The notes under the pieces: model-generated
Database searches by the model: none
The model's input: the letters and a program-made list of their open reading frames with translations, nothing else
Told to the model about the DNA's origin: nothing
Shown here: piece after piece, positions 1 to 45,018 of the stretch
How positions within the stretch are numbered: position 1 is the stretch's first letter
How the letters are laid out: each line of letters opens with the position of its first letter
NCBI GenBank assembly: GCA_021783235.1
Contig: JAJXUD010000002.1
Coordinates: forward strand, 1 to 64,000
Length of the DNA: 64,000 nucleotides
Source: Myxococcales bacterium
GTDB taxonomy: Bacteria; Myxococcota; Myxococcia; Myxococcales; JAKAPL01
Reading direction: 5' to 3'
Position numbers and translations under genes: made by a program

Positions 1-336
1 GAGAAGGCTCATCGAGGTCGTGATGAGCGTGATGACGACCCCGAGAAGGCTCATCGAGGTCGTGATGAGCGTGATGACGACCGCGACAAGGCTTCTCGAG
101 GTCGTGATGAGCGAGATGACGACCGCGAGAAGGCTCATCGGGCCCTTGATGAGCGAGATGACGACCGCGAGAAGGCTCATCGGGCCCTTGATGAGCGAGA
201 TGACGACCGCGAGAAGGCTCATCGAGGTCGTGATGAGCGTGATGACGACCCCGAGAAGGCTTCTCGAGGTCCCGATGAGCGTGATGACGACCGCGAGAAG
301 GCTTCTCGAGGTCGTGATGAGCGAGATGACGACCCC
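1..336. repeat. 42-bp tandem repeat array, eight copies, open at left edge
   Basis: Eight consecutive 42-bp units begin at positions 1, 43, 85, 127, 169, 211, 253 and 295, and a degenerate ninth follows. Units differ at two places: a core of GAGGTCGT or GGGCCCTT, and a left arm of GCTCATC or GCTTCTC. GCTCATC pairs with GATGAGC 8 nt later to form a hairpin. When the arm is GCTTCTC it pairs instead with the GAGAAG at the unit start. The period is divisible by three and several frames on both strands stay open, so a repeat-protein end is possible. No frame can be preferred because the array continues beyond the window. Confidence 0.95.
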
Positions 337-388
337 GAGAGCGGCTCTCGGGCCCGCGAGAGCTCCTCTCGAGCTCCCCGAGACGAAA

Positions 389-421
389 GCGGCCATCCCC
401 CCTTAGGGGGAGGACGGCCGC
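389..421. terminator. hairpin, possible terminator between repeat array and lipoprotein gene
   Basis: GCGGCC at 389-394 pairs with GGCCGC at 416-421, and an inner C run pairs with a G run around a TTA loop. The interior has a mismatch bulge. There is no T tract on either side, so intrinsic termination is only a possibility. The position suits the end of the minus-strand gene block to the right. The rest of 337-444 is degenerate repeat and shows no gene I can support. Confidence 0.35.
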
Positions 422-444
422 CTTCTCGCCCGCGCGGGCGCCGC

Positions 445-582
445 TCAGCCGCCGATCGGGTGCGCCTTCGCCGCTGCGAGGCCGTTGCCGGCGAAGTCGG
501 CCACGCCCGTGCCGAGCGTCAGCCTCTGCGTCCCGCTCGGCAGCTTCTGGTTCGGCGTGATGGCGATCGTCGAGCCGTCCAC
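445..582 (-). pseudogene. remnant of a bacterial Ig-like (Big_5-type) domain
   Basis: The minus strand encodes about 45 residues, starting VDGSTIAITPNQ and ending shortly after GVADFAGNGLA. This resembles the C-terminal half of the Ig-like domain often called Big_5, with the typical 'D-x-AGN-L' ending. The frame differs from that of the lipoprotein gene immediately upstream, and only half a domain is present. It is probably a leftover of a longer surface protein after a deletion or frameshift. A GTG at 580-582 could start a 45-residue peptide, but no ribosome-binding site is evident. Confidence 0.45.
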
Positions 583-590
583 TCGGCCCG

Positions 591-1802
591 CTACTGCGGG
601 ATCGCGACCACGTTCAGGACGCAGTCGTCGTAGGCGGCGAGCGTGCCGTCCCCCTCCGCGCAGACGTAGCAGCTCCCGCCGCTGAGGGCGTCGGGGTTCG
701 CGTCGACCCGGATCGTGTGCGTTCCCGCCGGCAGCGTGAAGCCGTCCGAGAGCTTCCAGGTCTGGTGCCAGTAGTTCGGCCCGTTGACGTGGATCCGCTC
801 GCCCCACATCGGATCGCCCTTCGGCGTGCCGTCCACGGTGAAGCGGTAGCCGACGTGGCACTGCCCCTGCGAGGGCGCGGTCGGGCTGTTCCCCCCGGTC
901 GTCCGCTGCACGCCGTCGGCGCTCGCCTCCACGAGCGCGGCGGTCGGCAAATTCAAGGTCACGGTGAGCCCCGGGATCGCCTGCCAGGTCGAGCTGGAGG
1001 GCGAGGCCGTCGAGGCGATTGCCCCGGTCCGGTGGACCGAGGCCCCCTGCACGGGCGGCAGGGTCGCCTCGCGGGCGACGAGCTTCACCCAGTCGAAGTC
1101 GGCGCAGGAGGCGCTCGAGCTCGCGTCGTGGCTCGCGATCTCGATCTCGAGGTCGTGGCTGCCGGCCGAGAGCAGGGCCGAGCCGACCATCACCGGGGCG
1201 AACTCCTTCTTCAGCGTCGGCGAGTAGAAGTCGACCTGCGCGAGCGTCTGGCCATCGACGAGGACCGCGTCCACCGCCCGGTCCGTGTCGAAGTCGCCGC
1301 GGATCCAGACGTCGTAGTAGCCGCCGAAGACGGCCGTGAAGTTGAACTGCAGGTTCGCGCCGACCGAGCAGCTCCCGACCGTGCCCGCGCCGGAGTAGGG
1401 CGGGAAGGCGCTGCTCGTCGCGCCGAAGCCCGTCGCGCTGGTGGCGTTCTCGGCTTCGAGGAAGATCGTCGGGACGCCCGTCGTCTTCGCGTAGATCTGC
1501 GCGGGCGAGTCGGGCGAGCCCGCGGGTCCGGTCGCCCCGGCGGCCCCCGTCACGCCCGTCGGCCCCGTGGGCCCGGTGGGGCCCATCGCGGCGGCCCCTC
1601 CCCCGGCGCCGGTCGCGCCCGTGGCGCCTGGCGTGCCCGTCGGCCCCATCGGCCCGACCGGGCCGGTGGCGCCGGTGGGGCCCGCCCCTCCGCTGCCGGT
1701 GGCGCCGGTGGGCCCGGTGACCCCCTGGGGGCCGGTGGCTCCGGAGCAGGCGGAGAGGAGCGCGAGCGAGGCCAGCGAGGCGAGCAGCGAGCGGACGGGC
1801 AT
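591..1802 (-). CDS. surface lipoprotein with collagen-like repeats and carbohydrate-binding-like beta-sandwich domains
   Basis: The protein has 403 residues. The start at 1802 is chosen because GGAGGA lies 6-7 nt upstream and because it begins a clean lipoprotein signal ([10 protein letters not shown]..., lipobox LSAC, Cys19). Residues about 21-98 are Gly-X-Y triplets rich in GPTG and GATG, so a collagen-like stalk. After this comes a segment with FLEAEN near its start and DFDWVKLVA near its end, the pattern of CBM6/35-like beta-sandwich domains. A second beta-rich module with paired Cys closes the protein. The likely role is a cell-surface stalk carrying a ligand-binding head; the ligand is unknown. 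The Big_5 remnant lies directly downstream. Confidence 0.8.
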
Positions 1803-1885
1803 TCGAATCCTCCAGCGGCCGGTCGGCCGACGATGGAATGCTCTCCGATCGCCGACTCCGCTGTCAACCGCGGGCGACGCCGCCG

Positions 1886-2134
1886 CTAGCCCTCTCCGCC
1901 CGAGCCGCCGGTCATGCTCGCGAGCGTCCGGCGCGCGAAGGAGGCCAGGTGGACGAGGAGCAGCCCGAGCCACGGCAGCGCGACCCACTGGAACCAGAGC
2001 CGGTCGGGCGTTCGGCTGCGGTTCAGCAGGGCGGCGAGGGCGACGCCGCCGAGGAAGAGCGCGAAGTGGAGCGTGAGCAGCTGCCGCTGCCGGTCGCGCG
2101 TGAGGAATCCCTTGGAGGGTCGCCTGTTGGCCAT
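1886..2134 (-). CDS. small two-helix membrane protein (2TM-like)
   Basis: The protein has 82 residues and starts [17 protein letters not shown] basic N-terminus is followed by two hydrophobic helices at about residues 20-38 and 48-65, joined by a short loop with Arg and Trp, then a Gly-rich tail. This fits the small '2TM domain' family, whose function is not known. I chose the ATG at 2134 because it gives a compact membrane protein. The sequence before it is low-complexity and overlaps the gyrA upstream region. The next gene on this strand, the lipoprotein at 1802, is a separate unit 83 nt downstream. Confidence 0.55.
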
Positions 2135-2191
2135 GGCGGGCGGCAGCCTACGCGAACGCCTTCGCGCGAGGCAAGGGAGGCCCGGAAACGT

Positions 2192-2220
2192 TTGACCCGG
2201 CGCGGCATTTTGGGCTACTG
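2192..2220 (+). promoter_or_regulatory. candidate gyrA promoter
   Basis: TTGACC at 2192-2197 is followed after 17-18 nt by CTACTG/TACTGA (2215-2221). The -35 is good and the -10 is weak. It lies 29 nt before the gyrA start in the divergent gap. Confidence 0.35.
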
Positions 2221-2249
2221 ACGGCTGTTTCACATCGAAGGCCCCTCCA

Positions 2250-4774
<2,525 letters not shown>

Positions 4775-42790: not shown

Positions 42791-42909
42791 GCTAGCAAAG
42801 AGCGCTGCCCGGGCCAAGGCCGCGCACGCGGCGCCCCGGGGCAGCGAGATCGGCCCCCCGGCTGCCCGTCTGTTGCGACCGCGCGTCGGTTCTTGGTTCC
42901 TTGCCGCCC

Positions 42910-45018
42910 ATGAAAAGCCACCGGGCGCTCCTGCCGCTCTCCCTGCTGCTCGCCGCTCCTGCCCTCGCGCAGGCGCCAAACGTCGGCGCCCTCCCCGAGA
43001 CCGAGAAGGTCCGCGGCGACCTCCCCCCGCCGCCGCTCCTCACCTCGATCGCGCTCTCCGACGCCCAGAACGAGTTCGCGGCCTTCCAACTCGTCGTCGC
43101 GGCCTCGGGCGCGCCCGTCACCGTCGAGGACGTCTCGCTCTCCGACCTGACGGGCCCGGGCGGCGCGAAGCTGTCGGGCGCCTCGGCGCTGGTCTACCGC
43201 GAGGCCATGGTGGCGGTGATGAGCCCCTCGAACTCGGCGGGCGCGGTGGGCGACTGGCCCGATCCGCTCGTCCCGAAGCTGGACGACTTCTACGGGGAGA
43301 CGCGCAACGCCTTTCCGGTCACGGTCTCCGCAGGCCGCAGCCAGCCGTTCTACCTCGAGCTCCACGTGCCGGCGGGCCAGCCGCCCGGCGGCTACGCGGG
43401 CGCGGCGACCGCGAGCTTCTCGGACGGCACGAGCGCGAGCGTCCCTGTGACGCTGCGGGTGCGGGCCTTCGCGCTCCCTTCGACCTCGTCGCTCACCACG
43501 GCCTTCGGCTTCGACTGGGACGGTCCCTGCGTCGGCCACTTCGGCGGCTACGGAGCGCCGAACTGCACCGATCCGCAGCTCGAGGCGCTGAACGCGCTCT
43601 ACTTCCAGGACGCGCTGAACCATCGGCTCACCATCAGCGCGCTCGTCTACGCGCCGCCCGTCTCGAGCGGCCAGGGGAGCTTCTCGACCTTCGACCAGCT
43701 CTACGGCCCGTTCTTGAACGGGACGGCGCTGACGAAGCCCGACCAGCTTCAGGGCGCGCAGCTCACCTCGATCCAGTACGTCGGCGACTGGTCGTCCGCC
43801 TCATTCGCCGCCTGGGCCGCGCACTTCAAGGCGAACGGCTGGTTCTCACGCCTCTTTGACTACACCTGCGACGAGCCGCCCATGACCTGCGCCTGGAGCG
43901 ACATCCCGACCCGGGCGGCCATCGTCCACGCGGGCGACCCGAACTTCCGCACGCTGGTGACCACCGACCTCGCGAACGCGACGGCGAACGGGGTCCTGTC
44001 GTCGATCGACATCCTCGTGCCCATCGACAACTCGCTCGACCCGGCGTCGGGGGACACGCGGCCCGCGTACGCAAACTTCCTGACGACGCCCGACTCGCTC
44101 CTCTGGACCTACCAATCGTGCTCGCCGACCTCGACCTGCGTCGACGGCGCGCAGGGCGGCGATCCGAGCTGGCCGATGCGTTACCTCGACGAGAGCGCCG
44201 CCTCGAACCGGCTGCTCGAGTGGGTGGATTTTGCCGAGAACGTGACCGGCGAGCTCTACTACGACACCACCATGAGCATGGCGGTCTATGGCGCCGCCGC
44301 CTGGCAGAACGAGTACGTCTTCGGCAACAACGGCGACGGCTCGCTCTTCTACCCAGGCAGCCCGTCGATCATCGGCGGCACGCACGACATCCCGATCGAG
44401 AGCCTGCGGCTGAAGCTCTTGCGCGGCGGCCTGCAGGATTACGAGTATCTCCACGAGCTCTCGGCGCTCGGCGACGTCGATTCGGCCAAGGCGGCGCTCG
44501 CGCTCGTCGCCCAGTCGGCGAGCCAGTTCACGCAGGATGGCGCGGTCTTCGAGGAAGCGCGCGCACAGATGGCCGACGCGATCGAGCGCGACCTCGGCGT
44601 CTCGTCGTCGGGCGGCGGCGCCCCCGACGCGGGGACGGCTGCGTCCGACGCGGGGACGCCTGCGCCAGACGCGGGGACGCCTGCGTCCGACGCTGGGACG
44701 GAGACGCCCGATGCCGGGACGGAGACGCCCGACGCCGGGAGTTCGAACTCGCCCGACGGCGGCGGCTCCCTCTGGCCCGCCTTGGACATCGAGCGGCCCC
44801 ACGCGCCGCTCTTCCCGCCCCTCGCGGCCCCGAGAAGCCCCACGACCAGCGAAACCCGGGGGGCGCGCGCCGCCGTCGGCCGCGGCTGCGGCACGGGGCC
44901 GGGAGGGACGGACTTCACCGCCGCCGTGACACTCCTTCTAGCCGCGATGACACTCGGCTCCCGGCCGAAGCGGCTGAAGCAGACCGAGGCCGGCGGCGGC
45001 AACGGGAGCGGCAAGTAG
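42910..45018 (+). CDS. secreted DUF4091/GH123-like protein with MYXO-CTERM-like tail
   Basis: The protein has 702 residues. The ATG at 42910 starts a signal peptide (MKSHRALLPLSLLLAAPALA). A beta-sandwich domain (about 25-185) is followed by a barrel-like domain with LFDYTCDEPPM, where the Asp-Glu pair may be catalytic, and ESLRLKLLRGGLQDYEYLHEL near 500. This layout resembles DUF4091 proteins related to glycoside hydrolase family 123. A linker of PDAGT/SDAG repeats leads to GCGTG (Cys660), a hydrophobic helix and RPKR, like the MYXO-CTERM sorting signal. It is probably surface-anchored and acts on polysaccharide. The substrate is unknown. Confidence 0.7.
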   Translation: MKSHRALLPLSLLLAAPALAQAPNVGALPETEKVRGDLPPPPLLTSIALSDAQNEFAAFQLVVAASGAPVTVEDVSLSDLTGPGGAKLSGASALVYREAMVAVMSPSNSAGAVGDWPDPLVPKLDDFYGETRNAFPVTVSAGRSQPFYLELHVPAGQPPGGYAGAATASFSDGTSASVPVTLRVRAFALPSTSSLTTAFGFDWDGPCVGHFGGYGAPNCTDPQLEALNALYFQDALNHRLTISALVYAPPVSSGQGSFSTFDQLYGPFLNGTALTKPDQLQGAQLTSIQYVGDWSSASFAAWAAHFKANGWFSRLFDYTCDEPPMTCAWSDIPTRAAIVHAGDPNFRTLVTTDLANATANGVLSSIDILVPIDNSLDPASGDTRPAYANFLTTPDSLLWTYQSCSPTSTCVDGAQGGDPSWPMRYLDESAASNRLLEWVDFAENVTGELYYDTTMSMAVYGAAAWQNEYVFGNNGDGSLFYPGSPSIIGGTHDIPIESLRLKLLRGGLQDYEYLHELSALGDVDSAKAALALVAQSASQFTQDGAVFEEARAQMADAIERDLGVSSSGGGAPDAGTAASDAGTPAPDAGTPASDAGTETPDAGTETPDAGSSNSPDGGGSLWPALDIERPHAPLFPPLAAPRSPTTSETRGARAAVGRGCGTGPGGTDFTAAVTLLLAAMTLGSRPKRLKQTEAGGGNGSGK

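Follow-up and report, generated by a model that had tools for sequence, protein, structure and literature searches.

Tandem DNA arrays with a 21-22 bp step often lie upstream of a many-copy family of small-protein genes in Myxococcota

We report a family of small-protein genes in the Myxococcota, many of which are preceded by a tandem DNA array of nearly constant spacing. An upstream array was found at 65 of 109 loci from 10 genomes, and the periods of these 65 arrays are multiples of 21 bp in 57 cases, multiples of 22 bp in five, 43 bp in two and 65 bp in one. Spacing, rather than a hairpin or a reading frame, is the feature common to the arrays, and a period of 21-22 bp is close to two turns of B-DNA. 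The reading that we favour, with a probability of roughly 0.45, is that these loci are copies of a duplicating cassette whose protein would assemble on its own helically phased DNA array.

Results

The window array belongs to a decayed gene copy

The window, that is the whole 64,000-nt stretch analysed here, comes from a Myxococcales bacterium (GCA_021783235.1, JAJXUD010000002.1, positions 1 to 64,000). It opens with a 42-bp tandem array at 1..340, each unit of which is a 21-bp dimer, and assigned to the minus strand, the strand of the gene, from TRF, related arrays and the overlap with contig C81. TRF bears out the 42-bp repeat of the original prediction (period 42, 8.1 copies, 90% matches, score 512) and also reports degenerate 21-bp units at 333..383 on the minus strand (period 21, 2.4 copies, 80% match), which are the outermost part of the same array. 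A GC-rich hairpin read from the sequence by eye, ggccatccccccttagggggaggacggcc (391..420, minus strand), lies between the array and a collagen-like gene, bounds the array on that side and is perhaps the terminator of this neighbouring gene. The gene itself, which adjoins the array (591-1802, minus strand), encodes a collagen-like, CBM35-like protein with a Pfam match to Collagen (PF01391) above the cut-off and to CBM_35 below it.

Contig C71 starts at base 1 of the window, and its edge cuts the array. The final 106 bp of contig C81 and the initial 106 bp of the window agree without a mismatch, the remaining overlaps listed with the window start having at least 4 mismatches. Because, among the matches to the window array, none besides those on C81 and C71 reaches a contig end, the two contigs most likely join at the window array. 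The joined array would measure ~550 bp or 13 units, its copy number being uncertain because the assembly broke inside it. Past the array, C81 holds a leader of ~140 bp, a strong ribosome-binding site and then a gene start that breaks off; the match to the family is restricted to residues 1-34, at 65% identity and with one stop. Since the C81 gene is broken off beyond the array, the window holds the outer part of the array of a decayed copy and is, in this sense, an orphan array.

Several smaller features of the window and its relatives may be recorded here. No Rfam family scored above its gathering score in window 1-2300; the sole match, to the Myxococcus sRNA Pxr at 337-429, reached 27.3 bits where the gathering score is 80 (E 0.037) and is probably a chance pairing of GC-rich hairpins. 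Window positions 454-582 match C46:17409-17537 at 87%, with a gene-less array of the window type ~2.4 kb off on C46, and an isolated 58-bp match to the window unit (88%) lies at L012:6502-6559 (C43:36501-36558), ~1.5 kb away from the array on C43. Elsewhere in the window (401-64000) there is one array above threshold, which is coding. A 21-bp repeat of 6 copies at 44616-44740, within a 705-aa ORF (42901-45018), encodes a DAGTxxxDAGT linker and is outside the array-gene system.

Related arrays keep alternative hairpins and lead to an intact gene

Arrays of the window type are also present on contigs C24, C46 and C43 of this genome. C24 and C43 hold an intact gene for a protein of 170 aa whose C-terminal stretch is basic; no family gene was seen at the C46 array. 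The original prediction had proposed that the array might be the end of a repeat-protein gene, and this did not hold up, as C24 and C43 have a separate gene that starts 140 bp past the array with its own strong ribosome-binding site. In both, one frame nevertheless stays free of stops between array and gene. Frames are open on both strands, as had been noted, and easily so with a period divisible by 3. The array does not simply stop outside the window with no gene and no conserved pairing, since both a gene and pairing were found.

The two alternative hairpins that had been described are present as well. On the gene strand (window minus) they can be written as CGAGAAG/CTTCTCG (H1) and GCTCATC/GATGAGC (H2), and at least 6 of the 7 pairs of one or the other, with G-U allowed, are kept in 45 of 45 related units. 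Only complete units were counted here (7 in the window, 6 on C81, 12 on C24, 14 on C46 and 6 on C43). After column shuffling a mean of 37.8 units (sd 1.7) keep the pairing and 0 of 1000 shuffles reach 45, a comparison that gives no clean probability as the units are related by descent. Against 40 column-permuted versions of the window array, none was as stable on either strand (z -3.8 and -2.7). The suggestion of a structured array is thus partly right, the related copies keeping the hairpins; over all loci, folding is not general and shows no strand preference.

The family is patchily distributed and many-copied in its carriers

Family proteins are ~150-220 aa long, with a basic C-terminal motif near TRxxRGTMGxKQK. 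Counting fragments, a single protein query found 30 matches in this genome (G000) and a profile found 34. In a search of 60 relatives, the matches were 34 in this genome, 13 in G001, 42 in G002, 14 in G003 and 2 in G006; the carriers amount to 5 of the 60 relatives and 5 of 195 genomes of the phylum, own genome included. A scan with a single protein found no relatives, and the first protein alignment was too diverse for scanning. A contig scan gave five loci, every one in an assembly named Myxococcales or Polyangiaceae, and searches around those loci found 26 matches in G195, 18-20 in G197, 14 in G198 and 1 each in G196 and G267, with 5 of 96 genomes around G195 carrying the family. Its distribution in the Myxococcota is accordingly patchy: seven genomes have 13-42 matches, three have 1-2, and most of those searched have none.

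The 109 loci were picked by match rank before their arrays were inspected and are a subset of all matches. They comprise 26 loci of G000 (of 30-34), 8/13 of G001, 24/42 of G002, 9/14 of G003, 2/2 of G006, 15/26 of G195, 1/1 of G196, 14 of G197 (of 18-20), 9/14 of G198 and 1/1 of G267, with the duplicates L115, L124, L126 and L133 left out of the totals. Most of these genomes are drafts, and loci that arose by recent duplication do not count as independent.

The predicted protein is largely helical with a basic C-terminal segment

The predicted fold has a helix at residues 5-24, a beta hairpin at 31-38, a long helix at 40-92 and a C-terminal helix at 115-140, the basic motif being on this separate, predicted C-terminal helix. 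The model is of moderate quality (pLDDT 77, pTM 0.44, five sequences), with lower confidence in the C-terminal helix than elsewhere. Of the 109 proteins, 98 fit the motif search, and in these the C-terminal segment has a mean net charge of +7.

Database searches returned little. Pfam gave no match above cut-off for L013 or for the A3 member for which a cut-off was given, the best E value among 5 A3 members being 0.022; the best NCBIfam value among 17 members was E 0.0023, with no Rep or ParB model; and the best PDB match by sequence had E 0.075. No DNA-binding domain was recognised through Pfam, NCBIfam or PDB, PHROGs gave no convincing family, and toxin families of the ToxN type (ToxN is a protein of about 170 aa) were matched neither in Pfam (6 members) nor in NCBIfam and PADLOC (17 members). 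The weak PADLOC matches to ZorA (E 0.0004) and peptidase_U41 (E 0.0018) each concern 1 of 17 members, and that to ZorA may reflect a long coiled coil. Foldseek found nothing at E <=0.001 in PDB and BFVD, and the best VIA-align Z, 6.6, is of a size that the tool itself describes as common among helical models; this lack of a fold match does not show that the fold is new. The linked protein, with its predicted long helix and basic tail, is a natural candidate for the binder of the array.

Upstream arrays share their spacing and not their sequence

Arrays were scored at a TRF score of at least 100 within 1500 bp of the gene, a limit by which L105, whose 22/44-bp array is farther away, counts as having none. 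In the first 69 loci (five genomes), arrays were upstream of the gene at 39 and downstream at 5, the downstream side serving as a control that shares the surroundings of the gene without being its promoter side. Multiples of 21 account for 37 of the 39 upstream periods, the other two being 43 and 44, as against 1 of 5 downstream (168). In a check made without TRF, the best self-matching lag was 21, 42, 63 or 84 at 47 of 66 upstream regions and at 10 of 66 downstream, and over lags of 17 to 26 the best was 21 in 52 and 22 in five of 61 arrays. The fold and k-mer analyses of these 61 arrays predate the finding of G198 and G267.

The arrays of G195-G197 were again upstream, several of those in G197 having periods of 22, 44, 66 or 132 bp. 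Downstream repeats that scored at least 100 were of period 10 (L107), 6 (L108) and 42 (L117, score 112). In the hold-out genomes G198 and G267, 4 of 10 loci had an upstream array at or above 100, all of period 42, and 3 of 10 had downstream repeats above the threshold, of periods 75 and 147 at L176 and 12-48 at L186 and L198; the downstream period 147 is a multiple of 21. L176 (G198) also has a period of 21 downstream of its gene, at a score of 70, its periods of 75 and 147 scoring 254-395.

Arrays run to as many as 26 copies, and 44 of the 109 loci have no array at threshold. At least 450 bp of upstream sequence was available at 102 of the 109, and an array was found in 63 of those 102; lengths and absences are uncertain because the assemblies are drafts and arrays break contigs. 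L018 has no array and its near-identical paralogue L020 has one. Given the 44 loci without an array, of which L018 is an example, the array is not needed for retention of the gene.

Unit sequences are mostly locus-specific and unrelated between loci. No word is common to the arrays: the top 6-mer, GATCGC, was present in 13 of 55 units, where the shuffled maximum averages 13.1 and the shuffled mean of GATCGC itself is 1.7, and the top 7-mer, CGCGATC, in 9 of 55, which equals the 95% point of the shuffled maximum, with a shuffled mean of 0.6 for CGCGATC itself. Six near-duplicate arrays (L014, L016, L032, L120, L129 and L130) were omitted from this count. GATC-type words are thus somewhat enriched in the arrays, and the absence of a shared word argues against one exact recognition sequence.

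Close paralogues share a block of gene and flanking DNA

Five close paralogue pairs in the set share a block of DNA: L016/L017 (97.7% identity over 645 bp), L018/L020 (95.1%, 657 bp), L019/L022 (95.4%, 1083 bp), L013/L014 (89.0%, 1024 bp) and L031/L032 (99.0%, 687 bp). At the 3' edges of the blocks of L016/L017, L018/L020 and L019/L022 are GC-rich runs followed by T-rich bases, which are terminator-like, and in L013/L014 similarity begins, on the 5' side, where the L014 array has its outer edge. Past a point 190 bp after the gene, none of the 5 pairs showed DNA similarity, and the 4 pairs that could be compared upstream of block or array showed none there either (L016 over 150 bp only). L031/L032 share a further 1054 bp of 80% identical DNA upstream, and the upstream neighbours of L013/L014 are weakly alike (45% over 58 aa). 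With one C24 neighbour as query, tblastn found no match at the C43 locus. At L016:2500-3040, a toxin-antitoxin-like pair (HTH_3 and Gp49 family) is located between the array and the promoter element; in the near-identical L017 the array is 183 bp from the gene. The proteins of paralogues change fast, dN/dS being 0.19-0.86 in 7 of 8 pairs and the eighth pair being identical, and values near 0.8 may reflect weak constraint rather than diversifying recognition.

A promoter-like element, where recognised beside an array, is on the gene side

A Gibbs motif search gave an element near TTGTCACGCTTTTC / TTGTCACGCTTTTCG, recognisable by eye in 14 of 56 loci (L015-L018, L020, L021, L025, L026, L030, L043, L053, L054, L064 and L072). 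The 34-base motif window ends 58 or 129-137 bp before the start codon. At the nine loci with both an element and an array, the element is on the gene side, and it is 25-121 bp from the array in eight of them and 983 bp from it in L016. A whole-genome search that allowed one mismatch found the 14-base core 6 times and its reversed control 0 times: 4 occurrences are before family genes, 1 is beside an array at a contig end (C25) and 1 has no array (C39). The element is absent from the window within 2 mismatches. We infer that it is a promoter, and if so the array would lie outside the transcript.

Discussion

Two explanations would have the array act through a transcript. It might work as RNA, transcribed with or ahead of the gene as a chain of hairpins that the protein binds or cuts or that controls expression, with unit variants switching between hairpins. 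The hairpins kept in all 45 related units speak for this, as do a layout like that of ToxIN, with repeats upstream of a ~170-aa gene, and gene-strand folding that is better than in at least 95% of column-permuted versions for 14 of 18 arrays of this genome and for 29 of 61 consensus units from all genomes. However, 27 of the 61 units fold as well on the opposite strand, the sense strand is the stronger in 33 of 61 (Wilcoxon p 0.55), 32 of 61 are unremarkable when folded as the gene strand, and for L043 every one of the 40 permuted versions is at least as stable as the array itself. An RNA under selection would be expected, through its G-U pairs, to fold better on its own strand, and the lack of strand preference is what would be expected of DNA dyads. 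A promoter-like element stands between array and gene wherever both are recognised, and the protein has no match to toxin families in the Pfam, NCBIfam and PADLOC searches. With no strand bias, and with about half of the arrays folding unremarkably, the general RNA-hairpin reading was lowered, and we consider it unlikely. Alternatively, the array might be translated, as a protein of 7- or 14-residue repeats or as an N-terminal extension of the gene. At C24 and C43 one frame runs on without a stop between array and gene and GC at third positions is high by eye, at least one of the six frames is open in 65 of 65 arrays, and open frames average 4.2 per array as against 3.1 after permutation. Yet the gene start has its own AAAGGAGG, the array is open in frame into the gene in only 16 of 65 cases, and the gene strand lacks any open frame in 6 of 65; periods of 22, 43, 44 and 65 bp, at which the reading frame shifts between units, disfavour translation as the cause of the spacing. 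For these reasons (the gene's own start signal, the non-codon periods and the few arrays open into the gene) the repeat-protein reading was rejected, and we regard it as very improbable.

Other readings keep the array as DNA and give the linked protein no part in binding it. That the arrays are enhancer-like sites for other regulators, one per locus, would agree with the distance of 25-121 bp between array and downstream promoter-like element in 8 of the 9 copies that have both, but the unit sequences differ and share no k-mer, which would require a separate regulator for each locus, and this seems improbable. More can be said for a mobile or selfish cassette in which gene and array have spread together, the array being either an end used in transposition or recombination or a by-product of copying, with no regulatory role. 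The distribution is patchy with many copies in the carriers, the five close pairs share blocks of 645-1083 bp without similar surroundings downstream (5/5) or upstream (4/4 testable), three pairs have a terminator-like 3' edge, the similarity of L013/L014 begins at the outer edge of the L014 array, and both a truncated copy (C81) and an array without a gene (C46) exist. On the other hand, there is no recombinase domain, no terminal inverted repeats were noticed in the block edges inspected, and searches gave no plasmid match (protein), no viral-contig match (protein profile) and no phage match (array DNA only); the upstream likeness of L031/L032 and L013/L014 fits segmental duplication, and mobility leaves the near-constant period across unrelated arrays unexplained. 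We see this explanation as unlikely.

The reading that we prefer is that of a protein assembling on its own array, for which a rough mechanism can be proposed. The cassette would consist, in order, of a tandem array of 21-22 bp units, a promoter-like element, the gene and a terminator-like hairpin, and its product would be small and probably helical, its C-terminal segment being basic. The protein may oligomerise through its long helix, with the basic segment binding the array from one side of the double helix, a unit or dimer for every two turns, and a nucleoprotein filament would thereby be built just upstream of its own promoter. Such a filament may serve in autoregulation, in marking or folding the chromosome at dozens of places, or in spreading the cassette. 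Array and protein would evolve rapidly in step, giving each copy its own address. A near-constant two-turn step combined with free sequence is as expected if many copies of a protein touch on one face of the DNA. A sharper version, which appears possible if doubtful, is that spacing is fixed and sequence free because each family copy would own a private array, along whose ladder the protein would polymerise, array and protein drifting together; in a still stronger form, the protein or a complex would impose the 21-bp step and so create new arrays beside new gene copies.

If this proposal is right, it describes a class of Myxococcota loci, up to ~40 per genome, that pairs a small protein with spacing-locked DNA arrays and that was recognised in none of our Pfam, NCBIfam, PHROGs, PADLOC and Rfam searches (Rfam for window 1-2300). 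It would mean dozens of self-addressed nucleoprotein assemblies within one genome and, with them, dozens of natural replicates in which to study how a protein reads helical phase and not sequence; it would also inform how arrays are kept uniform and how bacteria tolerate many long tandem repeats. A caution for annotation follows as well, in that arrays resembling hairpin or peptide repeats may be neither. Our literature search found no description of the array-gene cassette, which is not proof of absence, the subscription literature being thinly covered, and the many-copy cassette is apparently undescribed.

The cassette can be compared with three known kinds of system. Tandem repeats upstream of a small gene, the layout of 65 of our 109 loci, resemble ToxIN (PMC8860590). 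The cassette differs in having no ToxN-family match, a mainly helical predicted fold, a 21-bp unit, a promoter-like element between array and gene, and folding that is not strand-specific. Its transcription would also differ from that of type III toxin-antitoxin loci if the promoter reading is right.

Copies of a protein assembling on phased repeats are familiar from iterons and from the sopC centromere. The latter, parS-F/sopC of the F plasmid, has twelve 43-bp tandem repeats and, within them, ten 16-bp inverted-repeat sites (PMC6238139), and the window type, with its 42-bp units and 14-15 bp dyads, is similar to that extent. Over the loci examined, 15 of 61 consensus units have a dyad longer than that of at least 95% of permuted units. 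The cassette is unlike sopC in that no ParA/ParB homology is recognised in its protein, its loci are many per genome, its period is 21-22 bp and its sequences are mostly unrelated. Among iteron systems, cisII/cisMP of Deinococcus radiodurans carries 18-bp iterons, 11 and 8 in number, ahead of parAB (PMC7671480). Direct repeats of about 17-22 bp adjoining a gene, as in iteron-Rep/Par systems, were found at 65 of 109 loci, and the iterons of Rep and parAB loci share with the cassette arrays of direct repeats near two helical turns just upstream of a gene. In those systems the product of the adjoining gene binds the repeats, whereas for the cassette such binding is proposed. The cassette also departs from iteron systems in lacking a recognised Rep or ParB domain (Pfam, 6 members) and in its copy number of up to dozens per genome, its mostly different units and its longer arrays.
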